Positions 119-42,434 of a DNA stretch of 42,434 nt are shown here, piece by piece. The position numbers and the translations under genes were made by a program. A model generated the notes under the pieces. That model was not told the origin of the DNA and searched no databases. It was given only the letters and a program-made list of their open reading frames with translations. Within the stretch, counting starts at the first letter, position 1. Every line of letters starts with the position of its first letter. Source of the stretch: Acidobacteriota bacterium (GTDB taxonomy: Bacteria; Acidobacteriota; Terriglobia; Terriglobales; Acidobacteriaceae); assembly GCA_021792795.1 (NCBI GenBank), contig JAJYUB010000030.1:1-42434 (forward strand), read 5' to 3'.

Positions 119-371
119 TGAAGCGATACCAGGCGTAACCGCTGTAGTCGGGATAGCCCTGCTTCGTCCAGCTTTCGTCGGAGCGCAAGAGCGGCCATTG
201 CGAGTCGTCGAAGTTCGGATCGGCCCATGCGGGATCGTCGCCCGTATGAAATCGCCATAAACCATCGAGCGAGGTGATATTCTCGCGGCCAGTTTGCAGG
301 TTAAAGGTCTGGGCACGTAGCGAGAATGCGGAAACCAAAAACAGGAGGATGAACAAAGTTTTCTTCTTCAT
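119..371 (-). pseudogene. Truncated fourth copy of the 7TM/PP2C signalling gene
   Basis: Only about the first 84 codons of a gene of the same family as 2377-4335 remain. The signal peptide (starts MKKKTLFILLFLVSAF) and the first part of the sugar-binding-like domain (LDGLWRFHTGDDPAW, FDDSQW) are nearly identical to that gene. Similarity stops after the AWYRF motif, where the sequence changes to transposase; the fused frame stops at 54-56. The start codon overlaps the stop of the upstream gene (ATGA at 368-371), as between the intact copies, so this was the fourth cistron of the same operon. No membrane region or phosphatase domain is left, so the product should be non-functional. Confidence 0.8.
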
Positions 372-2380
372 ACAATGGCCGCTTTCAGGTTTGCCGTGCG
401 AGTGACTGACAACACGCTGATGTCGTCTTCCTGGCCGAAACTTTTGGCGGTTTCCGCGATGGCTTGCGCGGGTTGCTTGCTGATCGCCTGCGTGCGCTCA
501 AAGCCGAAGAGTTCCTTCTTCTCATTCGTAGCCTCGACCACGCCATCCGAGACAAAGGTCAGCCGGTCACCCTGAGCCAGCTCGTAGTGCGTTTCCTCAT
601 AGCTGCCATCCGCGAGAATTCCCAGCGGGAGGCCGGAAGCGACGGCCATCTCTTCGCCGTTGCGATACGGAGCTGGGTTCCCTGCGTTGGCCAGGGTCAT
701 TGTCCCGTCGGCTGTGATGAGCGAGGCGCAACAAGTGGCGAAGCCCTTAATCTGGCCGTGCAGCACTCGGTTCAAGTGGGCCAGGACTTCGGATGGCTGG
801 CGTTCTTTTTGATCGCGCAATGCGCCAACGATGGTACTTACCGTCATCGCGGCCTTCAATCCTTTGCCGCTGACATCGCCGACCACAATCAGCAGAGAGC
901 CGTCCTCGCCGGGCTGCACTTGAAAGAAATCTCCTCCGACTTCGCTGGCGGGAAGGTATACGCTCTCGATGTTCCACCCCGGAACCTGCGGCGGATGTGC
1001 TGGGATCAGCATTCGCTGCACCTCCTGGGCCTGTTGAAGGTCGTGTGTCATCTCTCGCTGGCGCACCTGCGACTGAAGAAAGCGGCGAAACACAAGGCCA
1101 AGAACAACAAGGATGAGTACGAACAGAGAAATATCGCTGATACCCAGATGTATGCCAAACGGGAAGTAGTCTACGGGAATCCCAATCACTTCCAGGTCGT
1201 TGCCAAATAGATTTATGCTCAGCAATATGACGGCAGGCAGCGCGATCCAGCCTTCCGTCCGGTTCCGGCGTATTCCGTCTACTGCGACCGCAACCAGGAG
1301 GAGTGCGAAGACGACGCGCAAAATCGTGCTGAACAGCCAGAGATCGCGTGTCCAGCCAAGGGATATGAGAGTTCCCATGACTGGTTGACGCAGGCAGGAG
1401 AAGGTCAACACTTCGAGCAGAACAAGCATCCATGCCACGCGACCCACCAGCCGGATTGCACGCAGCCGAAACCAATATGCCCAGAAGAATAGCCAGAACA
1501 AAGGGCCGAGGGCAGAGCCAGCCAGATCATTGATCAACACATTGGCTGCGTAGGACAGGTAGTACGTCATACTGGCGAGAAAATTGCTGATGGATACCAC
1601 GGCTTCCATTGCAAAGGCCAGCGCGAGCCAGAAATAAGCCTGCTCGGATCGGTCCATACGATAGATCCAGAATGCCGCAACGCCTGCAATCGAGGCCAGC
1701 AACCCGAGTAGCAGGTAGGAAAGAGCAGTATGCAGGTTGACGTCCTGATTCCGCTGCTGTAATAGCGCCACAGTATCAGGGAGGCCGATTACCGGTGGCG
1801 CGTGCATTCCGCCGGCATCAAAGTTCCATTGGACGCTTTCAGGCTGCATGTAGAAGCGCAGCGCGAGAACAACACTGCCATTGGCATTGGGAGCGGGAAG
1901 ATGAAATTCCATGGGATGTGAATAAAAAGCCGTCACATGCTTCGCGGTAAATTTTCCCATGGATCCCGCCAGTTGCCCGTTGGCATAAACCTGGTAAGCG
2001 TCGTCCACATCCGGCGGCATCTCCAGCCACAGATCCTCGTTGCTGCCTGTCACCTTGAATCTCGCCCGGTACCACGCGTACCCCGTCAGATTTGGAAAGC
2101 CCAAAGCTGTCCAACCGGGAACATATGAATCGGAACTGAAGTAGGGATCGTGGTAGTTTGCGCGCGGCTCGATGCTTACCAGTTTCCAGCCTGAATCGTC
2201 ATACCCAGGCTGGGCGTAGGCTGGATCGTCTCCGGGCTGAAACTTCCATTCGGTCAGCGCCACCATCGACTGGCCTAACGTAATGCGCTGCCTAGCCGGA
2301 GCGGAAACAGGAGTGCTCTGCGAATCAAGCCCACAGCACGCAGAGATGAGCAGCAGAACAAATAGAATTTTCTTCTTCAT
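368..2380 (-). CDS. Membrane PP2C-type (SpoIIE) serine phosphatase with sugar-binding-like sensor domain, copy 3
   Basis: The 670-residue protein has a signal peptide whose end (LLISACC) could also be a lipobox. A beta-sandwich domain like those of 7TM-DISM or glycosidase jelly rolls follows (FQPGDDPAYAQPGYDDSGW, ~45-190), then about seven hydrophobic segments (~215-430), a short coiled linker (QREMTHDLQQAQEVQRML) and a C-terminal PP2C/SpoIIE domain (~455-660). The metal-binding phosphatase motifs are present: GGDFFQV, GDVSGKG, SDGVVEA and GQEDDISV. The family usually dephosphorylates anti-sigma-factor antagonists; the partner is not encoded here. The start overlaps the stop of 2377-4335 by ATGA, implying translational coupling. 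The 3' ~500 bp is almost identical to that of the neighbouring copy, indicating recent duplication or gene conversion. Confidence 0.85.
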   Translation of the reverse strand: MKKKILFVLLLISACCGLDSQSTPVSAPARQRITLGQSMVALTEWKFQPGDDPAYAQPGYDDSGWKLVSIEPRANYHDPYFSSDSYVPGWTALGFPNLTGYAWYRARFKVTGSNEDLWLEMPPDVDDAYQVYANGQLAGSMGKFTAKHVTAFYSHPMEFHLPAPNANGSVVLALRFYMQPESVQWNFDAGGMHAPPVIGLPDTVALLQQRNQDVNLHTALSYLLLGLLASIAGVAAFWIYRMDRSEQAYFWLALAFAMEAVVSISNFLASMTYYLSYAANVLINDLAGSALGPLFWLFFWAYWFRLRAIRLVGRVAWMLVLLEVLTFSCLRQPVMGTLISLGWTRDLWLFSTILRVVFALLLVAVAVDGIRRNRTEGWIALPAVILLSINLFGNDLEVIGIPVDYFPFGIHLGISDISLFVLILVVLGLVFRRFLQSQVRQREMTHDLQQAQEVQRMLIPAHPPQVPGWNIESVYLPASEVGGDFFQVQPGEDGSLLIVVGDVSGKGLKAAMTVSTIVGALRDQKERQPSEVLAHLNRVLHGQIKGFATCCASLITADGTMTLANAGNPAPYRNGEEMAVASGLPLGILADGSYEETHYELAQGDRLTFVSDGVVEATNEKKELFGFERTQAISKQPAQAIAETAKSFGQEDDISVLSVTRTANLKAAIV

Positions 2381-4335
2381 ACGATGGCAGCTTTCAGGTT
2401 TGCCGTGCGAGTGACTGACAACACGCTGATGTCGTCTTCCTGGCCGAAGCTTTTGGCGGTTTCTGCGATGGCTTGCGCGGGTTGCTTGCTGATCGCCTGC
2501 GTGCGCTCAAAGCCGAAGAGTTCGCGCTTCTCGTTGGTCGCTTCGACCACGCCATCCGAGACAAATGTAAGCTGGTCGCCCTGAGCCAGCTCGTAGTGCG
2601 TCTCGGCATAACTTCCATCCGCGAGAATTCCCAGCGGGAGGCCAGAATCTACGGCCAGTTCTTTTCCATTCAGATACGGAGCAAGGTTGCCAGCGTTGGC
2701 GACGGTCATCGCACAATCGGCGGCAATCAACGCAGCGGAACAAGTGGCAAAGCCGCTGATTTGTCCGTGCAGCACGCGATTCAGGTGTGCCAACACCTCC
2801 GCTGGCTGGCGGGAAGTCTCATTCCGCAGCGCGCCGATGATCGTGCTCACCGTCATCGCCGCCTTCAGTCCCTTGCCGCTGACGTCGCCTACAACAATCA
2901 ACAACGAGCCATCGTCCCCCGGCAGAACCTGGAAGAAATCTCCGCCCACTTCGCTGGCCGGGATGTAGATGCTCTCGACGGTGAATCCCGGCGTGCTCGG
3001 TGCAGTCGCCGGAACCAGCAGCGACTGCACGCTGCGTGCGGCCTCAAATTCGTTCGCATAGCGTTCCTCCTCGCGGCGAGTTCGAGCGAAGCGGTTCACC
3101 AGAATGGCCAGCACTGCCAGCAGAAAAAGAGCATCTGCCGCCTGCTGAATCGTAATTGTGAAGGGCCGGTTCGTAATGGTGATGTTGTATCCAAGTTTGT
3201 ATTGCCATCCCAGGTTGAATGTCACAACGGCTGCGTATTGGAAGAGTGCCACAGATTTTTGCAGCAAAACCGGCGCGAGCAGCAGGCGAGCATCGGGCAG
3301 GTTTTGCCGTGCGCGGGCAAATAGCAGAGTCAGTATCCAAGCGTACATCGGGAGCCGAAGCGATGCTTGGAACCCGTTCCTTGCCGGGGCAGACCACAGA
3401 TGCAGGCGTCCCCAAAAGAACGGCCCTACGATCGGCATCAGGATGAAAAGGCAGATGACTGCCGTCCAGTAGAGCGGCGTGCGCTTTCCCTTCAGTAAAT
3501 AGAAATAGAAAAGCATCTCAGCCAGACTGGCGCACACGGCTCGAACGCCATCGTTGAGGTCATTCGACAGGACTACGTTCCAGGCATGCGAGGTCTGGTA
3601 CAGCAGGAGCCATGCGCTACCCGCGCCGGCCAAAAGGATGAAGACGCCGAACCAAAGGTATTCCCGCTCCGAGCGCCGCAGCAGGAACAACGCCAGTGCC
3701 GCGATTCCCGCCAATATCTGGAGCAATGCGAGAATCATGGGACTGGAGTGGTTCCACATATTAGATTGGAGAAGGGCGGTGCTCCAACCCGCGACCATCT
3801 TCGACTGTCCGATTAAACCGCCGCCCGTTGTCGGGCCACCTCCGCGGTACTTTGCCCAGTTTGGCCAGTGCCATACGCGAATCGCGATTTCAATGGTCTG
3901 GCTCGTGCCTGTAGCGCGCGGAAGCGCGTAAACGCTGTAATCGCCGCCGTTGTACGCAACCGCGTGGGGTGGCATCTTGCCGTAAGTGCCGATGAGCACG
4001 CCGTTGGCATAGACCTGATAGCTCGTGCGAATTTGCGGTAGCATGAGCGAAACGCGATCCATCCCCGCGGGAACAATAATCCAGAAGCGATACCACGCCA
4101 AGCCGCCATAGCCGGGATAACCTTGCTCGGTCCATGGGCGGTCCGAGCGCAGCAGCGGCCATTGCGAGTCGTCGAAGTTCGGGCTGGCCCATGCGGGATC
4201 GTCGCCCGTATGAAATCGCCACAGCCCGTCGAGCGATGCGACTTGCTCGCGGCTAGTTTGCAAGTTAAAGGTCTGGGCACGTAGCGAGAATGCGGAAACC
4301 AAAAACAGGAGGATGAACAAAGTTTTCTTCTTCAT
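2377..4335 (-). CDS. Membrane PP2C-type (SpoIIE) serine phosphatase with sugar-binding-like sensor domain, copy 2
   Basis: The 652-residue protein has the same architecture as its neighbours: signal peptide ending near SLRAQ, a galactose-binding-like domain (LDGLWRFHTGDDPAW, YQVYANG; ~30-170), seven predicted membrane segments (~195-415), then a SpoIIE phosphatase domain (~440-640). The acidic metal ligands are intact in GGDFF, GDVSGKG, SDGVVEA and GQEDDISV. By family it is a periplasmic-ligand-responsive phosphatase at the inner membrane. It overlaps the upstream gene by ATGA at 4332-4335 and the downstream gene by ATGA at 2377-2380. The N-terminus is nearly identical to the truncated copy at 119-371, and the C-terminus to copy 3, so the array probably grew by duplicating a two-gene unit (copy 2 plus copy 3). 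Ligand and substrate are unknown. Confidence 0.87.
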   Translation of the reverse strand: MKKKTLFILLFLVSAFSLRAQTFNLQTSREQVASLDGLWRFHTGDDPAWASPNFDDSQWPLLRSDRPWTEQGYPGYGGLAWYRFWIIVPAGMDRVSLMLPQIRTSYQVYANGVLIGTYGKMPPHAVAYNGGDYSVYALPRATGTSQTIEIAIRVWHWPNWAKYRGGGPTTGGGLIGQSKMVAGWSTALLQSNMWNHSSPMILALLQILAGIAALALFLLRRSEREYLWFGVFILLAGAGSAWLLLYQTSHAWNVVLSNDLNDGVRAVCASLAEMLFYFYLLKGKRTPLYWTAVICLFILMPIVGPFFWGRLHLWSAPARNGFQASLRLPMYAWILTLLFARARQNLPDARLLLAPVLLQKSVALFQYAAVVTFNLGWQYKLGYNITITNRPFTITIQQAADALFLLAVLAILVNRFARTRREEERYANEFEAARSVQSLLVPATAPSTPGFTVESIYIPASEVGGDFFQVLPGDDGSLLIVVGDVSGKGLKAAMTVSTIIGALRNETSRQPAEVLAHLNRVLHGQISGFATCSAALIAADCAMTVANAGNLAPYLNGKELAVDSGLPLGILADGSYAETHYELAQGDQLTFVSDGVVEATNEKRELFGFERTQAISKQPAQAIAETAKSFGQEDDISVLSVTRTANLKAAIV

Positions 4336-6374
4336 ACAATGACCGCTTTCAGGTTTGCCGTGCGAGTGACGGACAGGACAGAGATGTCGTCTTCCTGACC
4401 GAACTTCATGGCTTGCTCGGCGACCTGCTGCGCGGAGGGGTTGGCGGTCAGCAACGTTGCCAGTCGTTCGAAGCCGTATAGCTGACCGTCTTTTTCACTG
4501 CGCGCCTCGACCACGCCGTCCGACATCACCATGATGCCGTCGCCGTCGTTCATCTGGAAGCTTTGCGATTCGTATATCTGGTTGGCCAGCATGCCCAGCG
4601 GCAGCGCGCCCGGCATCTCGAACTCTTTCCCATTCACCCATGGCGGCAGATGTCCGGCGTTGGCTACGGTCACCATTCCGTCGGCATCGAATCGCGCGCA
4701 CAGGCAGGTAACGAAGCCGCTCTTCAAATTTCCAGTTAGCTCGCGGTTGAGGCGAGTAAGGATGTCGGCTGGCTCACTGGTTTCTTTCGCAATCGCGCGC
4801 ACCGCGCCCACCGCCATCGAGACCACCATGGCGGCACGCAATCCTTTACCGCTAACATCCCCCAGCACCACGATCATGCCGCCCTCCGGCAGCGGCAACA
4901 CTTGATAGAAATCTCCGCCCACCTGACTGGCGGGCAGATACGTTCCCTCGACACGATAGTAGGGGATTGAAGGGAATTGCTCCGGCACCAGCAGGGCCTG
5001 CACCGCCTGCGCCTGCTGCAACTCGCCTTCAATCCGTTGATGCTCCCGCCACTGCCGCACAAAACGATAGATCAAAATGGCGAGCACGGACGCCGGGGTC
5101 AAGATTGTAAGAACATCGGAGACGGCGACCACAACCAGAGTCGCCAAACGCCCGTTGGCAAGAAATACCCAAAGGGTCAGGACCGATATCACTGCGCCTG
5201 GAGACAGCATCAGCCACGCTTCCCGCCCCAGCTTGCGAACCCCCGCCACGGCCATCCACAATAGGCACGCCAGGCCCGACAACAATGAGATTTCGACCGC
5301 GGTAAACAGAAATGCGTGGGCCCTCACGGAGCCGAGCCACTCCCCGTTGATGGTGAAAGCGATCCACAGAAGAAACATAAGGCCGCCCGCGATCAAGTTT
5401 GCGACCTGCATCCTTGGACGGTCTTCAAGAGAAAGCAGCCATTGCAGCGCCAGCAGACTGAACAGAAACGCACTCGCGCTGAGTGCATTCGCGATAAAAA
5501 ACGGAGTCTCTGTCAGCCATCCTGTGGCTGAAAATCCGTCCAGCACCATCAAAAGGTCTGCAAAAGTTAAGAACAGCAGGGTCAGTCCAGTCCAGAGATA
5601 CTCTAGACGTTTGCGGTTGTAAAAAAACAGCAACAGGGAAATCAACGCTACCAGAAGACACGGCAGCACTTCAGTCAAGGCGGTCACCGCGAGATTCAGT
5701 TGTTCCAGTCGCAGCGCCAGATGTTTGATCCTGGGAGCCGTTGCGCCATCCGCAAGCAGCGGCGCCCCGCGCAATCCGCTATGAGGATTGGCAAAAACAA
5801 GAGGCATGTCCCACGCGCGGACTGCCAAAACATGATCGCCAACTTTGCACAACGAGGATGGGACCGAAAACACTTGTGTGCGCGGAATAAGGTAGGCCCA
5901 CCGCCGCGAAGGACCGCCATAGCCCCCCAGCTTTTGGCCATCCCAGTAAACCGTGTAGGCGCTGTCGACTACCGGAACCAGTAAGCTCAAGGAACTCGGG
6001 ACACGGTCCAGATAGACGTGAATCCGGTACCAGCCATAGTTGGGCGCGCCGCGATAGCCATGTCCGCCCCAGCCCGGATCGAATGCATTTTGCTCGGGGA
6101 GAATAGATTCCGGCCAGCCCTGCGCTTCCAGTGTGTAGTCGTGCCAGTTCGCGTCGTTGAAGCCGGGCTGTGCCCAGGCCAGATCGTCCCCCGTACGAAA
6201 CTTCCACGGCCCCATCAGCGCCAGCGCCGAGTTCCCCAAGGCAATCTGTTGCGCGCCATGGTCCACGGGCGCAACCGGAAAGTTGGAGAACACGTTGGAC
6301 ACGGATGCGCTCTGCGCGGTGGAGCCCAGCGTAAGCACAGGTAGGAGCAAGAGAAAAAAGCAGATTCGTCGCAT
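4332..6374 (-). CDS. Membrane PP2C-type (SpoIIE) serine phosphatase with sugar-binding-like sensor domain, copy 1 (array leader)
   Basis: This is the first and most divergent member of the tandem array, about 680 residues. I chose the ATG at 6374 because it begins a signal peptide (MRRICFFLLLLPVLTLG). The frame stays open to a TTG at 6428, with another ATG at 6419, so a slightly longer form is possible. Domains in order: beta-sandwich sensor-like domain (KFRTGDDLAWAQPGFNDANW), seven membrane helices, linker (RIEGELQQAQAVQALL), PP2C/SpoIIE domain with GGDFYQV, GDVSGKG, SDGVVEA and GQEDDISV. Its last residues (SVLSVTRTANLK...IV) match the other copies although the rest of the phosphatase domain differs, as expected if the 3' end and overlap are being homogenised. 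Transcription presumably starts in the 6375-6680 gap. Confidence 0.85.
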   Translation of the reverse strand: MRRICFFLLLLPVLTLGSTAQSASVSNVFSNFPVAPVDHGAQQIALGNSALALMGPWKFRTGDDLAWAQPGFNDANWHDYTLEAQGWPESILPEQNAFDPGWGGHGYRGAPNYGWYRIHVYLDRVPSSLSLLVPVVDSAYTVYWDGQKLGGYGGPSRRWAYLIPRTQVFSVPSSLCKVGDHVLAVRAWDMPLVFANPHSGLRGAPLLADGATAPRIKHLALRLEQLNLAVTALTEVLPCLLVALISLLLFFYNRKRLEYLWTGLTLLFLTFADLLMVLDGFSATGWLTETPFFIANALSASAFLFSLLALQWLLSLEDRPRMQVANLIAGGLMFLLWIAFTINGEWLGSVRAHAFLFTAVEISLLSGLACLLWMAVAGVRKLGREAWLMLSPGAVISVLTLWVFLANGRLATLVVVAVSDVLTILTPASVLAILIYRFVRQWREHQRIEGELQQAQAVQALLVPEQFPSIPYYRVEGTYLPASQVGGDFYQVLPLPEGGMIVVLGDVSGKGLRAAMVVSMAVGAVRAIAKETSEPADILTRLNRELTGNLKSGFVTCLCARFDADGMVTVANAGHLPPWVNGKEFEMPGALPLGMLANQIYESQSFQMNDGDGIMVMSDGVVEARSEKDGQLYGFERLATLLTANPSAQQVAEQAMKFGQEDDISVLSVTRTANLKAVIV

Positions 6375-6455
6375 AGGCAGGCTCTTCGGGGGCACTTCAC
6401 GAATAGCAGCCGCGCCCATCTTTTGCAACGGAGAAATGTTCAGATCTCGAAGTGA

Positions 6456-6491
6456 GTCCTGCTGAGGTCGCCTCGGCGACCTCAGCAGGAC
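6456..6491. repeat. Perfect 16-bp inverted repeat (stem-loop) with a T-tract on the plus side
   Basis: Bases 6456-6471 are the exact reverse complement of 6476-6491, with a 4-base loop (CTCG). A run of seven T follows at 6497-6503 on the plus strand. It has the form of an intrinsic terminator for plus-strand transcription, but no plus-strand gene lies before it. It sits between two minus-strand genes (antiporter upstream, phosphatase array downstream). On the minus strand no T-run follows the stem. It may be a mobile palindromic (REP-like) element, a terminator of antisense transcription, or a leader structure of the phosphatase operon. Confidence 0.6.
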
Positions 6492-6551
6492 GGGTCTTTT
6501 TTTATCCCACTACACCAATAGGAGAACCGCTATAAGGAAGCTCTGATTAAG

Positions 6552-6617
6552 CCTGGTTTGTATCAGGGCACGGCTTCAAGAGCCTGCCCTGAGCGCAGCC
6601 GAAAGGTGCCGTATATG
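6552..6617 (+). repeat. Dispersed palindromic repeat, copy A (GGTTTGTATCAG family)
   Basis: The block starts GGTTTGTATCAGGGCACGGC and ends near GGTGCCGTA, with outer arms GGCAC and GTGCC that can pair. A second copy, about 85% identical over ~62 bp by eye, lies in opposite orientation at 14292-14355. It is non-coding and intergenic, and looks like a REP/BIME-type element. Confidence 0.65.
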
Positions 6618-6680
6618 GCGCGGAAATTCGGTAGGGCTTTAGCCACTGAATGATTTTCTGTCGACTGAATCAGACCTTCC

Positions 6681-7928
6681 TTAACCCGTGGCGGCAACTG
6701 GCGCGGGCGCGTCCGGCTTTTTCTTCAGCAGCCTCAATGCAGGCGCGGTCATGGCCGTGGTGATCAGAGCGACCAGCACCAGAATGGTGAACAACTGCGT
6801 ATTGATCGCTCCGGCCTGCAGCGCCAGGTTCACCACCACCAGGTCGATCAGGCCGCGGGTATTCATCAGAAAGCCCAGCAACATCGATTCCCGAGGCGGC
6901 AGATTCGATTTGCGCGCGCCGAAATAGGTCCCGCCAACCTTGCCGGCAATGGCAATCGCCAGCAGAACAACGAACCAGAAAAAAACATTCTTGCCGCCCA
7001 GGTCGCGAAACTCTGTATGGATGCCAGTGACGGCGAAAAACACAGGCAACAGCAGGACTGAAACCAGCGGATGGATCGTCCGCTCCAACTGGCGATGCCA
7101 GTGGTGCAGGCGCGGAACGCACATGCCCGCGAGAAACGCGCCGAACAGCGCATGTACACCCAGGCGTTCGGTCACGAAAGCGCAGGCGAGAATAAAAACC
7201 AGAAAAACCGCCAGCAGCACCTGCGAAATGTTCGGCGCGCCTTTCCAGCGGATCAGCCTGGTCAGCGCCGGCCGCACAACTCCCAGCAGAAAAATTCCGA
7301 ACAGTACCAGCAAAAGCATCTTCAACAGCAATATCCACACCGTCGAGTTGGCGGAGTCGATCATCAAGGCCACCGCCAGCAGGATCCAGCCCAGCACATC
7401 GGCAATCGCGGCGCACACCAGCGCCAGCGTGTTCAGCTTGGCATCGCCGGTTCCGTTATCGCGCAGCATCCGCGCCAGAACGGGGAACGCGGTGGTGCTG
7501 AGTCCGACGCCGACAAACAGCAGGAAGGCGGTGAAGTTCGGGTTGGTTCCGTGGAAATTGCGATACATCACCACGCCCAGCCCGCAGCCCAGCGCAAACG
7601 GAATCGCCATGGAGAGCAGGCTGATCTTCATGGCCGTCTGTCGCTGCTGCCACACCGACTCAAAATCCAGGTTCATCCCCTCCAGAAACAGGTAGAGGAC
7701 CATGCCCAGTTCGCTGACCAGCGACAACGTATGCAGGGAGTTGGGAGGAAACAGATTGGCGATCAAGTGCGGCATGGCATAGCCAAACACCGATCGCCCC
7801 AGCAGAATACCGCCCAGCATCTCTCCCACTACCTGCGGCTGGCCCAGTTTACCCAGCAGCACGCCGCACAGGCCGGTGACCAACACAATGACGGCGATCT
7901 GTAATAGGAACAGTGCGAGTGCGCTCAT
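6681..7928 (-). CDS. Kef-type (CPA2) cation/proton antiporter
   Basis: This 415-residue protein is almost entirely hydrophobic, with about 12-13 membrane segments. Conserved CPA2/Na_H_exchanger features include LGQPQVVGEMLGGILLGRS near residues 28-46, ELGMVLYLFLEGMNLD (~73-88), LSTTAFPVLARML, HALFGAFLAGMCVP, and a conserved NTRGLIDLVVVNLAL block (~353-367). By family it exchanges Na+ or K+ for protons across the inner membrane. The C-terminus stops after the last helix with a short KKKPDAPAP tail, so there is no RCK/TrkA-N regulatory domain as in full KefB/KefC. It is separated from the phosphatase array by ~300 bp that hold repeats, and probably forms its own transcription unit. The ion is not predictable from the sequence. 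Confidence 0.88.
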   Translation of the reverse strand: MSALALFLLQIAVIVLVTGLCGVLLGKLGQPQVVGEMLGGILLGRSVFGYAMPHLIANLFPPNSLHTLSLVSELGMVLYLFLEGMNLDFESVWQQRQTAMKISLLSMAIPFALGCGLGVVMYRNFHGTNPNFTAFLLFVGVGLSTTAFPVLARMLRDNGTGDAKLNTLALVCAAIADVLGWILLAVALMIDSANSTVWILLLKMLLLVLFGIFLLGVVRPALTRLIRWKGAPNISQVLLAVFLVFILACAFVTERLGVHALFGAFLAGMCVPRLHHWHRQLERTIHPLVSVLLLPVFFAVTGIHTEFRDLGGKNVFFWFVVLLAIAIAGKVGGTYFGARKSNLPPRESMLLGFLMNTRGLIDLVVVNLALQAGAINTQLFTILVLVALITTAMTAPALRLLKKKPDAPAPVAATG

Positions 7929-8199
7929 GAGTGAATGAAAGGCCTTTTCCAGTTGTATCAGGATTGTAGGACGGAACGTTGTAAAGGGAAGTTGCGACTG
8001 ATTCTATTTTTACTGCGGCGATGCAGGATCGCGGAATGGAAAGCGCAGTCGAGGCACGAGTCCAACAGAAACTGCAGTTTGACTCGCGGCTGAGACGGAT
8101 CCGTGGGCTGGCAAATTGCGGTTCGCGAAGAACCCGCGCAGGTCGTTTGCTTGAGCGCGCAGAGCGCCTGCGGGTACAGCAAAAATCGTCAGTCGTGGC

Positions 8200-8526
8200 T
8201 TAATAGCGGTTGAATTCGCGAATGGTGCCGCTGACTCTATGCGCTGCCCTGCCGGCCGCATTCTGCCCCGCGCCCACAATCTGGTCGACCACTCCCCGCC
8301 CTGCCAGGTCGTCATTCCCCGCGATGCGGCCGATGCCTTCCTTCACTCTCCCCAGCAGGTCGCGCCCGGTTCCCGCGATGCGCTGCCTGCTTCCCCACAT
8401 CTCGGTTCTGTCTGCGGCGGCGTCCAGCTCGTTATACTCAGCGGCATAGCGGCAGGCACGGCGATCCAAAATGATATACGTGGCGACGATGCCCAGTGCA
8501 AGCGGTATCCAGATTTGGCGTTTCAT
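8200..8526 (-). CDS. CsbD-like small stress protein with N-terminal membrane anchor
   Basis: About 108 residues when started at the ATG at 8526; the open frame reaches 8637 but its upstream part looks non-coding. One hydrophobic segment (IWIPLALGIVATYIILD, ~4-20) is followed by a hydrophilic region. The C-terminal half (RIAGTGRDLLGRVKEGIGRI, then AGNDDLAGRGVVDQIVGAGQ) resembles CsbD-family repeats in which G-K/R-x-K-E-x-x-G and DDL motifs are typical. CsbD proteins are general-stress proteins of unclear biochemical function. Lying close to hsp20 and clpB fits a stress role but proves nothing. The assignment is by motif only. Confidence 0.6.
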   Translation of the reverse strand: MKRQIWIPLALGIVATYIILDRRACRYAAEYNELDAAADRTEMWGSRQRIAGTGRDLLGRVKEGIGRIAGNDDLAGRGVVDQIVGAGQNAAGRAAHRVSGTIREFNRY

Positions 8527-38504: not shown

Positions 38505-39974
38505 ATGGATCGGGAAATCAGGTTGTCTCTTGCCACAACGTTCATGGTGGCAGGCATTTTGATAGCGATTCAAGCTTCAGCGCCGCGTGCGGAGGCGATT
38601 CCAGCCTTCGCGCGGAAGTACCACACCGCCTGTTCCACCTGCCACAACAATTGGCCGGAGCTCAATGATTTTGGACTTGCGTTCAAGATGAATGGCTTCA
38701 AGTTTCCAAAGGACGATGAAGATTTTGTGAAAGAGCCGCCTCTGATGCTGGGCGCTCCAGCACAGAAAGAGGCATTTCCCCATTCCATGTGGCCAGGAGA
38801 ACTTCCGATTCTACCAATCGCATTCCGCTATTCAGGCTACTTCAACTACAACAGCCCCCAGCCGCCTGCAGTGATTGCTGCGAATGGCTTTGTTCCGCAA
38901 ACTGACATTTTTGAACCCAATACTTTTACGATCATTGCCGCCAGCAGCCTTGGACCTTCCCTTGAATTCTGGATTGACGACGACCTCGCCACAGGAGGTT
39001 CAGGGGCCGATGGTGGCTTGGGAGATGCCTACATCAAGGCCAACAATTTTATTGGATATTACCTGCATGTTCCCAAAAACGATCTCAATGTCCGGTATGG
39101 GCAATTTGAACTCGATCTTCCGTTTACCCAGGCGCGCACCATCAACCTGACCGACTATGCAATTTACGACGAGACGGCCTATGTCAATCCCACTGGGACT
39201 GGCCCGCTTCCTGGGACGACGGCCAATCCGTTCACCTTTGCATCGCCCCAACGTGGAATTGAGTTTGGCGGGTATCCGCATCAAGGGTATTCGTGGTGGA
39301 CAGTTTCCATTGTGGACGGAGAGAACGCTTTGTACGGGACTGCGCCGCTGTCCGCGCGCAATTCCAAAGACGTCTATGTCAATCTTTGGCAGGGCTGGAA
39401 CTTGGAGCGGAATCCAGCGATCCGCAAGCAAATCCAGGCATCCGGCCCGACCGGCATCCATGACCACACATGGATAAAGTTCAACGCCTTCGGATATTTC
39501 GGAAACAACGCCCTCAATCAAGGGGGGACCCTATATGCAGGGCTGCCGACAATTCACGAGCCCTTCTATCGTGCCGGCGGCGCGTTCGATTATAGGTTCC
39601 GCGGAGACTTTGAACTCTGGGGCCTGATGGAGCATGCCCATGATTCCAACGAGGCATTGAACCCAACCGGCACGGCCTTTGTGTCCGCCACGCCGGTGAC
39701 TTTTTCCGGTGGCTTCCTCGAAGCTGAATACTGGTTCTATCCGTGGCTCATCGGTCTGATGCGCTACGACGGGGTCAACTCTCCAACGGACCGTCTAAAT
39801 GGCATTTCTCGCTACGATACGCGAAACATCTACAGCCCTGGATTGCAAATCTTTGCACGTCCCAATATTAAGTTGGAGTCGCAGTATTCCTTTAGCTACC
39901 AACAGCCCGTCCCTGGGACCAACACGTTTTATCGCGACAACAAGTTCATATCAGGGGTTGATTTTGTATTTTAA
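38505..39974 (+). CDS. Fused monoheme cytochrome c-porin, Cyc2-like outer-membrane electron carrier
   Basis: The 489-residue protein has a signal peptide (~1-30). Directly after it comes a small heme domain, AIPAFARKYHTACSTCHNNW, with the CXXCH at C43-H47, followed by PELNDFGLAFKMNGFKF. This A-x-P-x-F-A-R...C-x-x-C-H...P-x-L-N-x-F-G-x-x-F-K-x-N-G-Y/F pattern is the signature of Cyc2-type fused cytochrome-porins. The rest (~100-489) is rich in alternating aromatic/polar strands and ends in Phe (FISGVDFVF), as expected for a ~16-strand barrel. In iron oxidizers Cyc2 takes electrons from Fe(II) outside the cell. Here it heads a run of copper and heme proteins. GGAGG lies 10 bases before the ATG. 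The direction of electron flow is inferred only. Confidence 0.8.
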   Translation: MDREIRLSLATTFMVAGILIAIQASAPRAEAIPAFARKYHTACSTCHNNWPELNDFGLAFKMNGFKFPKDDEDFVKEPPLMLGAPAQKEAFPHSMWPGELPILPIAFRYSGYFNYNSPQPPAVIAANGFVPQTDIFEPNTFTIIAASSLGPSLEFWIDDDLATGGSGADGGLGDAYIKANNFIGYYLHVPKNDLNVRYGQFELDLPFTQARTINLTDYAIYDETAYVNPTGTGPLPGTTANPFTFASPQRGIEFGGYPHQGYSWWTVSIVDGENALYGTAPLSARNSKDVYVNLWQGWNLERNPAIRKQIQASGPTGIHDHTWIKFNAFGYFGNNALNQGGTLYAGLPTIHEPFYRAGGAFDYRFRGDFELWGLMEHAHDSNEALNPTGTAFVSATPVTFSGGFLEAEYWFYPWLIGLMRYDGVNSPTDRLNGISRYDTRNIYSPGLQIFARPNIKLESQYSFSYQQPVPGTNTFYRDNKFISGVDFVF

Positions 39975-40032
39975 CAACGCGTGATAGATCGGTGCTAAAC
40001 CAACACAAACTGCTACAAGAGGAGATATGGAA

Positions 40033-40644
40033 ATGAGCAATTTAAAGAAGATCGTTTTTCCGTCCGCCGTTTTGCTTGTACTGGGAACAATCGTGACTTC
40101 TGTCTGGGCAGGAGATGTGAAGGGAAAGGTCACTGCGCAGGGTCTGCGCTCTCCGGAGAACATTGCCGTTTACATCGATGCCATACCGGGTAAGACATTT
40201 CCTCCGCCGGCACAGCATGCCGTCATGGACCAGCACCACCTGGCATTTGTCCCCCATGTGCTCGTCATCCTGAAGGGAACGACAGTCGACTTCACGAATG
40301 AGGATCCGGTCGGCCACAACATATATTGGCCGGCCATCAACCGCAATCGCAAGCTGGCGCACAATATGGGTACTTGGCCGCAGGGGATTTCAAAGCCGTT
40401 TACCTTCGATGTGCTTGGCGACGTTCCCTTGCTCTGCAATGTTCATCCGGAGATGTCCGGCTACATAATTGTCGTGCCGACGCCGTATTTTGCGTTGACG
40501 GACAAAGATGGCAACTACACCATCAAGAATGTTCCGCCTGGCAAATACACCTTGACGACGTGGAGCGAAGAAGCCAAGCCTGCGACGCAGGCAGTGACTG
40601 TGGGCGCCGGCATCGCGAACGCCAACTTGACAGTAAAGAGATAG
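40033..40644 (+). CDS. Periplasmic type-1 copper (cupredoxin) protein with regulatory-like C-terminal domain, copy 1
   Basis: About 203 residues from the ATG at 40033; this has GGAG at 8 bases, whereas the ATG at 40027 is only 2 bases from it. Signal peptide ~1-26 (ends SVWAG). The cupredoxin domain carries a full type-1 copper ligand set: His95 in VGHNIYWP, then Cys135, His138 and Met141 in LLCNVHPEM (C-x2-H-x2-M, as in amicyanin). Residues ~150-203 form a beta-sandwich of the carboxypeptidase-regulatory-like type (DKDGNYTIKNVPPGKYTLTT). It should be a one-electron carrier, well placed to accept electrons from the cytochrome-porin 58 bp upstream, like rusticyanin. It is a tandem duplicate of the next gene. 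Confidence 0.85.
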   Translation: MSNLKKIVFPSAVLLVLGTIVTSVWAGDVKGKVTAQGLRSPENIAVYIDAIPGKTFPPPAQHAVMDQHHLAFVPHVLVILKGTTVDFTNEDPVGHNIYWPAINRNRKLAHNMGTWPQGISKPFTFDVLGDVPLLCNVHPEMSGYIIVVPTPYFALTDKDGNYTIKNVPPGKYTLTTWSEEAKPATQAVTVGAGIANANLTVKR

Positions 40645-40701
40645 CGCATTGAGCGGCGGAGACCTGGCAACTTTCACAACCTCCTGAAAGGAGACATAAC
40701 T

Positions 40702-41373
40702 GTGGCCGAACACAAGAAGATCGCTGTGTTGTCTGCCGTTTTGGTCCTGGTAGTATCGCTGGCACGTTTTGCTCAAGCAGGAGATGTGCGAGGAAAAGTC
40801 AAAGCGCAAGGAATGCGTTCCCCGGAAGACATCGTTGTTTACATCGATAGCATTCCGGGGAAGACATTTCCGCCGCCAGTGCTACATGCGGTCATGGACC
40901 AAGTACGGATGGAATTCGTTCCGCATGTGCTTGTTATTTTAAAAGGGACCTCAGTCAACTTTCTCAACGATGACCCGGTCCAGCACAACGTATATTGGCC
41001 CGCCATCGATAACGACCGTAAATTGGCGCACAATATGGGCACATGGCCGCAAGGGATTGTGAAGTCCTTCACCTTCGACGAACTGGGTGTCGTCCCATTG
41101 CTCTGCAAAGTTCACTCCGAAATGTCCGGCTACATTGTCGTTGTGCCGACACCGTATTTTGCGGTGACTGACAAAGAAGGCAACTACACCATCAAAAATG
41201 TCCCGCCAGGCCGGTACACCTTGAAGACGTGGAGCGAAGAAGCCAAGCCTACGACCCAGGCGGTGACTGTGCAAGCCGATATGGGCACCAGGGCCAAGCC
41301 TGGCTGCAACTGCGTCCCATGCGGCTGTGCTATGCGGCAGACAACGAACGTGGACCTGACAGTGAAGCAATAA
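40702..41373 (+). CDS. Periplasmic type-1 copper (cupredoxin) protein with Cys-rich tail, copy 2
   Basis: The 223-residue protein starts at a GTG (AGGAG at 8 bases). It is highly similar to copy 1, with the same signal peptide position, His95, Cys135, His138 and Met141 (LLCKVHSEM), and the same regulatory-like domain. It differs by an insertion of about 20 residues near the C-terminus containing GCNCVPCGCAM (Cys202, 204, 207, 209), a CxCxxCxC motif able to bind Cu(I), Zn or an Fe-S centre. The final residues (NVDLTVKQ) resume the copy 1 pattern. Both copies presumably work in the same chain; the insertion may add metal storage, docking or redox sensing, all unproven. Confidence 0.85.
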   Translation: MAEHKKIAVLSAVLVLVVSLARFAQAGDVRGKVKAQGMRSPEDIVVYIDSIPGKTFPPPVLHAVMDQVRMEFVPHVLVILKGTSVNFLNDDPVQHNVYWPAIDNDRKLAHNMGTWPQGIVKSFTFDELGVVPLLCKVHSEMSGYIVVVPTPYFAVTDKEGNYTIKNVPPGRYTLKTWSEEAKPTTQAVTVQADMGTRAKPGCNCVPCGCAMRQTTNVDLTVKQ

Positions 41374-41520
41374 AAGTTGAGCGATGGAGGTTTCGTGTGG
41401 ATGCTATAGGCAAAATTCTGAACCTGAGCGGATTGAAATTCAATCGCAAATGTAAGCATGCCCGTTCAATCTGCCGAAGCTGCGTACGATACGCTTTACC
41501 CTCGCCGTGGAGCAGGCATG
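41374..41520. other. Spacer between cupredoxin copy 2 and the cytochrome c gene
   Basis: 147 bp with no gene; somewhat AT-rich in the first half. No terminator or clear promoter was seen, so co-transcription is likely. Confidence 0.4.
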
Positions 41521-42434
41521 TCATCTGAAAAACTGCAAAAGGCCCTGTCCTGGGCGTCTTATGTGTTCGCCGTCTGTATGGCCGTTCTGCTGGTCATGAT
41601 CTTCTGGCAGGTGAGAACGGATTGGCGCGCATGGAAACAGTACAAGCGGGGGCCCGTCCGGTCCGTAGATATGCGGCCCGGCATTCTCGCATGGAGGCAG
41701 CCTGTCCTGCCAACACAATATGTGCAAGGTAGCTGCGGAGCATGCCATCGAGATGACCTTCACCAGACGCCCCGTCTGAACCATGGCCGGCAGTTGATCG
41801 TAAAGTTCAATTGCATCGCATGTCATCAACTTCAGGACATAGATCGCCCTGACATGCTGGGACCGGACCTGACCAGCGTGGGAACCAAGGTGAGTCGCGA
41901 ATGGATCTACAAGTGGCTCAAGGAGCCGCGCACACTCACCGACGCGGATGGCAACGTGACTGTTGATGGCGTGGACACCGATCCACGCATGCCGAAATTC
42001 CAACTGAGCGATCGGGAGTTGCGCGCGCTTTCGGCGTATCTGAGCGTGCAGCGGGCAAAGCCAGTTGCGCCGTATCGATTCAGTCCGCGTGTCGTTGCTG
42101 CCGTGGCCAGAAAAGGGGATGTGGCGGACCAGGGCAAGATCCGGTTTGACCAGATGTTTTGTGTCACGTGCCATGCGCTTGCCGTTGATCGGGCCGGAGA
42201 AACCACGCTCATCGGAGGAGACATCGGGCCGGAGCTGACGAAGGTCGGCAGCAAAGTGAAACCGGACTGGCTGGTGGCCTGGTTGCGTGACCCGCAGAGC
42301 TATCTGCAGCACACCAAAATGCCGCAGTTTCAGTGGTCCGACCAGGACTTGTATGAAGTGACGCAGTACATCCTGAAACGGCTTACCGATCCGGACCTAT
42401 TGAAGGATGTGCCGCAGTTGGGGGCGCCCACCGA
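41521..42434 (+). CDS. Membrane-anchored multiheme cytochrome c (at least three hemes), 3' end outside window
   Basis: About 304 codons, open to the right edge with no stop. It starts at ATG 41521 with GGAG upstream. An N-terminal membrane anchor (~12-31, YVFAVCMAVLLVMIFWQ) is not cleaved-looking. Three CXXCH heme sites follow: CGACH (~73-77), CIACH (~99-103) and CVTCH (~215-219). The latter two lie in repeated class-I cytochrome domains, each followed by a Met-containing segment that likely supplies the distal ligand (PRMPKFQLSD and TKMPQFQWSD). It faces the periplasm at the inner membrane and should exchange electrons with the copper proteins and a terminal oxidase or quinone-linked complex beyond the window. 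Confidence 0.85.

Follow-up and report, generated by a model that had tools for sequence, protein, structure and literature searches.

Cyc2 serves as a marker of iron oxidation in metagenomes, and for many of its homologues the partners and the electron path are obscure. Members of the family, such as Cyc2 of Acidithiobacillus ferrooxidans, Cyc2PV-1 of Mariprofundus and Cyt572 of Leptospirillum, have a monoheme N-terminus and a predicted 16-strand OprP/OprO-like barrel. The hallmarks listed in the excerpts of Keffer et al. (PMC8406198) used here are the motif AXPXFAR[Q/K][T/Y] before CXXCH, PXL after it, a length of at least 365 amino acids and a 16-strand OprO/OprP-like porin. In the rus operon of Acidithiobacillus (cyc2-cyc1-cup-coxBACD-rus; excerpted in PMC10654088 as cyc2-cyc1-cup-cox...-rus), an outer-membrane Cyc2, a copper protein and a cytochrome c are encoded in one cluster. 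The excerpts of PMC12954380 used here describe Rieske/cytochrome b complexes of Kuenenia (Kustd1480-1485 and Kuste4569-4574) that combine a hexa- or octaheme cytochrome with an NAD(P) oxidoreductase; according to them, no driving redox reaction has been proposed for Kustd1480-1485 in the anammox literature. Here we analyzed a 42,434-nucleotide stretch of DNA (the window, C122:1-42434) from an acidobacterial genome of 4.04 Mb (133 contigs, 98.2% complete), at the right end of which four consecutive open reading frames (ORFs) on the plus strand were found as an initial annotation had placed them. They encode a Cyc2-type cytochrome-porin, two cupredoxins and the start of a multiheme cytochrome c.

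Judged from gene content, this set probably passes electrons through the outer membrane. Our preferred reading, to which we give about an even chance, is that the cluster is an envelope-spanning electron conduit, a stably kept reduced form of a nine-gene operon, through which electrons would flow inward from an extracellular donor, probably Fe(II).

The window shares with the rus operon the combination of Cyc2-type porin, copper protein and cytochrome c. It differs in that the cytochrome is an anchored hexaheme protein instead of a c4-type Cyc1, the cupredoxin is fused to a CarboxypepD_reg domain, oxidase genes are absent and an extra conserved secreted protein is encoded. Likewise, the porin has the features of the Cyc2 family, but its partner genes and their order are unlike those of the rus operon, and no cox genes are adjacent. 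Gene content and order thus rule out a simple copy of the rus operon. Of the parallel to Cyc2-rusticyanin-Cyc1 drawn in the initial annotation, the Cyc2-type porin and the cupredoxins were confirmed, but the cluster as a whole seems to derive by reduction from a larger operon and is not simply an analogue of that series.

The cytochrome-porin, the copper proteins and the hexaheme cytochrome

The assignment of the first gene to fused Cyc2-type cytochrome-porins was borne out by its motifs and by the barrel prediction. The heme domain, AIPAFARKY HTA CSTCH NNW PEL (AIPAFARKYHTACSTCHNNWPEL), matches the consensus of PMC8406198, with CSTCH at residues 43-47 as initially annotated. In this protein, 3 residues separate the first motif from CXXCH (the excerpt words the motif as 5 amino acids upstream), and PXL starts 4 residues past CXXCH, as stated there. 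The protein is longer (489 amino acids) than the family minimum and has a signal-like N-terminus, judged from the sequence and from a hydrophobic helix at residues 2-25 of the model. An AlphaFold2 model based on 62 aligned sequences (the window and 61 of 71 porin rows) had a mean predicted local distance difference test score (pLDDT) of 74.3 and a predicted template modeling score of 0.72. It contains 16 strands of at least 7 residues, counted by eye from the strand list, so that the structure prediction proposed as a check yielded an outer-membrane barrel; its C-terminus, ...VDFVF, ends in the expected Phe. The outer-membrane location of the protein is predicted.

In Foldseek searches with the porin model, DcaP (E 9e-11) and other porins headed the list, which also included OprP (4e-9) and OprO (5e-8). 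In VIA-align the best Z score was 23.6 for OprP (2o4v; root mean square deviation 3.0, 302 aligned), with chitoporin, OprO and many other porins tied. These structural neighbors, OprP, chitoporin and DcaP, are solute porins and would suit a transport porin with a gating or sensing heme that stands outside any electron wire and whose neighbors serve periplasmic chemistry. However, a shared fold shows no function, and the order of the gene with copper proteins, multiheme cytochromes and, in relatives, an entire Rieske/cytochrome b gene set is conserved across tens of genomes; we regard a transport porin as very improbable. Searches of Pfam and NCBIfam gave no family for the porin at E<=0.1, in agreement with the low conservation of Cyc2 barrels. 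Among PDB sequences no significant match was obtained (none at E<=1 in one search, a fatty-acid enzyme at E 0.23 in another), and a search for porin relatives on plasmids gave none.

The identity of the next two products as cupredoxins is supported by their type-1 copper ligands (His, Cys, His, Met), which are invariant in 78 of 78 aligned sequences, the two from the window included. Both copies have the complete set, as had been claimed, but the numbering His95/Cys135/His138/Met141 fits the second copy only. The Pfam model PF00127 (Copper-bind) matched them marginally (scores of 20.0 and 21.7 bits, one on each side of the 21.2-bit cut-off; 31.9 bits in the relative L049). Plastocyanin, amicyanin and halocyanin models gave weak matches below their cut-offs, and the rusticyanin family was absent among the Pfam and NCBIfam results at E<=0.1. 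The duplication of the cupredoxin is present in the window, but an adjacent pair before the multiheme gene recurs in only 2 of 11 related reduced loci (L056 and L064). Near its end, the second copper protein carries a Cys-rich tail, CNCVPCGC (window 41300-41335), and in L056 and L064 the second copy, too, has a Cys-rich tail.

For the fourth gene an anchor and three CXXCH sites had been described. The hydrophobic N-terminal anchor and the three sites are present in the window, but the complete protein, which continues on contig C64, has six hemes. It comprises 669 amino acids when read from 41458 and 649 when read from 41518, and it matches monoheme-type c domains.

Full, reduced and mini operons in related genomes

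Genome contigs were scanned with the porin alignment A1, which leaves out the porin of G258 (internal stop), and the neighborhoods of the best 80 of 556 confirmed loci were read by tblastn. All 80 are titled Acidobacteriota or subgroups thereof except L134 (Ignavibacteria), and the acidobacterial origin suggested for the window agrees with the nearest named loci. To judge from isolate labels, many of the nearest loci probably derive from acid mine drainage sediment; palsa, bog, fen or soil depths appear in some of the titles.

In 50 of the 80 loci, cyc2 and the cupredoxin gene are followed by a gene for a flavin adenine dinucleotide (FAD)/[4Fe-4S] oxidoreductase, alone or with more of a module, its usual companions being Rieske, split cytochrome b and octaheme genes. 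Thirty-nine of these 50 show the full nine-gene order cyc2, cupredoxin, FAD, Rieske, cytochrome b N, cytochrome b C, multiheme, monoheme, last gene; in three of the 50, the contig stops with the FAD gene as the only module gene in view. The reduced form of the window, in which the copper protein gene or genes are immediately followed by the multiheme gene, was found in 11 loci, 2 of them cut by a contig end. A mini form (10 loci) has neither module nor multiheme gene and keeps the last gene; exceptions are L074, where the last gene follows a 4-kb gap, L116, which has no cupredoxin match, and L134, which keeps a monoheme match. One further locus shows cyc2 and cupredoxin only, and in eight the contig ends at cyc2. 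The module genes of L049 matched Pyr_redox_2/Fer4_20/Fer4, Rieske, Cytochrome_B and Cytochrom_B_C in Pfam, and no Rieske, split cytochrome b or FAD/FeS gene was found in the window cluster or its continuation.

Three loci depart from these patterns or carry further genes. In L099 (18999-21449) a second set of cupredoxin, Rieske and cytochrome b replaces the last gene after the octaheme and monoheme genes. The full operon of L049 is preceded (at 140-8298) by four multiheme ORFs, each with 4-5 CXXCH, and by an NrfD-family gene, which suggests an alternative-complex-like neighbor. The mini locus of L134 (1789-5299), in which the porin frame is broken, lies on a short contig of the Ignavibacteria-labelled genome and could be due to transfer or mis-binning.

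A tree was built from 72 porin rows, 11 of them reduced (10 of the 11 loci plus the window). These 11 fell into one clade with a Shimodaira-Hasegawa-like approximate likelihood ratio test support of 100; this clade includes one row that is unclassifiable because its contig ends too early. On this tree, the 8 rows of the mini form require 7 changes. The tree was a quick one with no root inferred, and nine of the 80 loci, among them L067, were left out since their frame was open-ended or fell outside 440-560 amino acids.

Selection on the reduced cluster was estimated as the ratio of nonsynonymous to synonymous substitution rates (dN/dS) in comparisons with L058, L059, L060 and L064. The porin gave values of 0.04-0.08, whereas copper protein 1, both cytochromes and the last gene gave 0.07-0.25, calculated by the simple Nei-Gojobori method at dS values of 0.6-1.6, which are partly saturated and near saturation for L064. 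The reduced cluster is under purifying selection and stably maintained. These ratios of 0.04-0.25 and the same architecture in 11 related loci rule out a broken remnant, and a chance arrangement is excluded because the gene order recurs in tens of genomes and dN/dS is low.

The reduced form also differs from the full form in the multiheme protein itself. All 10 complete proteins of the window type, including that of the window, have six hemes, and 41 of the full type have eight. The six hemes of the window align to hemes 3-8 of the octaheme protein: heme columns 1 and 2 are vacant in every one of the 10 reduced sequences and occupied in all 41 full ones, and the remaining six are occupied in all 51. 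This comparison leaves out L056 and L057, both cut by contig ends, L072, whose ORF as read has 4 hemes, and L135, a full-type locus with 7 hemes. It uses aligned heme columns, since a regular expression for the N-terminal diheme segment (35 of 43 full and 0 of 9 reduced loci) was too strict. The joint absence of the complex and of two particular hemes is the strongest hint as to where the complex might meet the wire. A predicted docking site on the multiheme protein follows from this paired absence, and with complex and two specific hemes missing together, the reduced clade offers a clean comparison.

The closest described counterpart of the full module is found in Kuenenia. Like the complexes of that organism, full-form relatives encode a Rieske protein, a b6-like cytochrome b, a subunit-IV-like protein, an octaheme cytochrome c and an FAD/4Fe-4S pyridine-nucleotide oxidoreductase, a likeness of part lists at the Pfam level to the excerpted description. 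They differ in that the acidobacterial loci also contain genes for a Cyc2-type porin and a cupredoxin, and in that the window cluster has no such complex. A Cyc2-linked relative suggests a candidate for the driving redox reaction of Kustd1480-1485. Cyc2, cupredoxins and Rieske/cytochrome b complexes are each already known separately. No description of a Cyc2-Rieske/b-NAD(P) operon was found in open-licence PubMed Central (PMC) full text, subscription papers and preprints being outside this scope; as far as the open literature searched shows, neither the acidobacterial operon nor the fact that complex and hemes are missing together has been described, and the same holds for the conserved last gene.

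Electron path, direction and donor

The conduit logic of the initial annotation is supported by the gene cluster, and from it we infer an electron path, a direction and a donor. The Cyc2-type cytochrome-porin would hold a single heme in the outer-membrane barrel, from which the periplasmic cupredoxins would relay electrons to the inner-membrane-anchored hexaheme cytochrome c and the monoheme cytochrome c. In full operons, a Rieske/cytochrome b complex with an anammox-like set of parts would be wired to this conduit, with the first two hemes of the octaheme protein as its docking or entry hemes. Complex and hemes would have gone together in the clade of the window, so that here the wire would meet the inner membrane only via other proteins, the simplest partners being a soluble or oxidase-side cytochrome c. 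The likeliest direction would be inward from an extracellular donor, probably Fe(II), to a heme-copper oxidase, the quinone/NAD(P)H ("uphill") arm having been discarded. Inward flow to oxidase-side cytochromes appears simpler because the cluster has no quinone-linked module of its own, and the genome contains three COX1-family (heme-copper oxidase) genes over the cut-off.

With regard to the full form, we tentatively propose a more specific arrangement, possible but doubtful, in which octaheme protein and cupredoxin hard-wire an outer-membrane Cyc2 oxidase to an electron-bifurcating Rieske/b-NAD(P) complex, and the reduced clade dropped the NAD(P)H arm and exactly its two docking hemes. If so, electrons from outside the cell would be used directly to form NAD(P)H in bacteria most of which have no RuBisCO (Acidobacteriota and a few genomes of another phylum), and the clade of the window would be a natural deletion experiment. 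The conserved Cyc2-cupredoxin-Rieske/b-NAD(P) operon offers a possible route, amenable to testing, by which electrons could pass from the cell surface to quinone and NAD(P)H.

Several points weigh against an inward, iron-oxidizing conduit that arose by reduction. The heme region of the porin model has low confidence (residues 27-55 and 66-84 are below pLDDT 50). Loss of the module is preferred to its gain because the reduced clade sits near full-type rows, although the unrooted tree leaves this unproven. No oxidase gene was found on the window contig or C64. RuBisCO-family genes were found neither in this genome nor in 10 reduced relatives, nor in 35 of 38 full-operon genomes tested. This is not the setting of a classical autotrophic iron oxidizer, and the full module would in most genomes serve NAD(P)H or quinone needs outside the Calvin cycle; a role of the full operon in Calvin-cycle autotrophy was rejected, with a match in only 3 of 38 full-operon and 0 of 10 reduced genomes. 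According to the excerpts of PMC8790237 used here, acidophilic acidobacteria include Fe(III) reducers, and a Cyc2-rusticyanin-bc1 route has been proposed to run outward as a ferric reductase in Acidithiobacillus. Finally, Cyc2-type matches are so widespread that the substrate is unreadable from the family: they turned up in 105 of the 396 genomes that were sampled in the phylum (at E<=1e-5), and in 79 of the 296 sampled in the phylum of the Ignavibacteria-labelled genome.

The Fe(III) reducers and the ferric reductase proposal favor an outward conduit, in which quinol-oxidizing complexes of the cell would feed the cytochromes, these would reduce the cupredoxins and the porin, and the porin would pass electrons on to extracellular Fe(III), humics or a different acceptor. 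So do the full operons, which encode a quinone-linked Rieske/cytochrome b complex together with the conduit, and the genome of the window itself, in which two of the three cytochrome b (PF00033) genes (on contigs C93, C98 and C47 only) adjoin Cyc2-motif genes. The window, however, has the conduit and no quinone-linked module to feed it, although other complexes could still do so, and the three COX1-family genes likewise speak against this direction, which we consider rather unlikely.

The breadth of the Cyc2 family, with up to five matches per genome, and a last gene product with no confident family or fold would accord with a role outside iron respiration, as a conduit or periplasmic redox system that handles some other substrate (manganese, copper, phenolics or humics, reactive species). 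In the excerpts of Keffer et al. (PMC8406198), function is most uncertain in Cyc2 Cluster 3, but biochemical evidence of Fe(II) oxidation is reported for three diverse Cyc2 representatives, and no alternative substrate-handling enzyme was recognized in the cluster. Another substrate thus appears unlikely, and we retain inward flow from Fe(II) as the preferred reading.

The two further Cyc2-motif genes of the genome lie beside Rieske/cytochrome b genes. On C98 (L037:2354-9679, minus strand) a Cyc2 paralogue is followed by genes for two small cytochromes c, an FAD/FeS oxidoreductase, a Rieske protein, a fused cytochrome b and a hexaheme cytochrome. The hexaheme protein includes the N-terminal diheme segment, and a gene judged by eye to encode an NtrC-type regulator is located upstream. 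In C98-type regions, cyc2 precedes the FAD-Rieske-b genes in three of four cases, and in L240 it is on the opposite strand beside a second Rieske/b pair. On C93 (L036:6019-10565, minus strand) the Cyc2-motif gene directly precedes a Rieske gene and a gene for a cytochrome b-tetraheme c fusion. Of 9 regions taken from reduced-form relatives, 8 have the same arrangement (L231-L238; L239 has no Cyc2 motif), and the fusion carries tetraheme c where the gene is complete; from its position, the C93-type Cyc2 looks dedicated to a bc-type complex. All 11 reduced-form genomes, this one included, have some cytochrome b gene. The possibility that the missing Rieske/b module is always present elsewhere as a C98-type operon was rejected, as its FAD protein was found (E<=1e-60) in only 5 of the 11.

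Rieske and cytochrome b hidden Markov model matches were both present in 29 of 80 neighborhoods, or in 10 of 12, 15 of 31 and 4 of 37 by falling porin-score band. These 80 are the two paralogues of this genome and 78 better-scoring matches, a nonrandom sample in which several Rieske/b-negative neighborhoods are cut by contig ends; the chance of a cytochrome b gene in a random 16-kb stretch is about 1%, calculated from three genes in 4.04 Mb. In the second phylum, 4 of 20 loci inspected had both Rieske and cytochrome b genes and 16 did not, and one (L266) had the full set including the FAD protein and octaheme cytochrome. Genomes of this phylum (e.g., G500, G627 and G670) contain up to five Cyc2-type matches each, mostly with no Rieske/b neighbors in the loci inspected.

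Contig join, downstream genes and the last gene of the operon

Contig C64 opens with exactly the 127 bases with which the window ends. The join of the two contigs appears sound because the relatives L060 and L064 have the same gene order on single contigs, and C64 is thus taken as the continuation of the window. The features of the combined locus are listed in Table 1. The gaps between the four genes in the window are 52, 57 and 144 nucleotides with the cytochrome start at 41518, and the third gap is 84 nucleotides if the cytochrome starts at the first in-frame ATG (41458).

Table 1. Genes of the cluster in the window and in its continuation
Feature	Position	Strand	Evidence or remark
Cyc2-type fused cytochrome-porin, 489 amino acids	38505..39974	+	Motif, AlphaFold2 model, Foldseek/VIA-align
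Periplasmic cupredoxin with C-terminal CarboxypepD_reg, copy 1, 205 amino acids	40027..40644	+	Ligands H97, C137, H140, M143
Second cupredoxin + CarboxypepD_reg protein, 223 amino acids	40702..41373	+	Ligands H95, C135, H138, M141
Start of membrane-anchored hexaheme cytochrome c	41518..42434	+	3 of 6 hemes in the window; rest L003:1-1160
Monoheme cytochrome c	L003:1157-1720		After the hexaheme gene, 4-base overlap
Secreted protein, 426 amino acids, signal-like N-terminus	L003:1717-2997		After the monoheme gene, 4-base overlap

The initial annotation had suggested extending the contig rightward for a cytochrome oxidase, cytochrome b or quinone-linked complex. None was found on C64, and the window contig likewise has no cytochrome b gene. 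Beyond the last gene lie LarA-like, myo-inositol-oxygenase-like and major facilitator superfamily transporter genes, which were named by eye from their translations and look unrelated to respiration.

The last gene encodes a protein of about 426 amino acids with a signal-like N-terminus that ends full, reduced and mini operons alike (53 of suitable length), including mini loci from which module and multiheme gene are absent. For its product, Foldseek gave no PDB match at E<=0.001, and the best VIA-align Z score was 5.6, which does not demonstrate a new fold. The model alignment comprised 46 of the 53 rows. Pfam matches were weak only, with S4 in 13 of 46 members (best E 0.0009) and other families in one or two.

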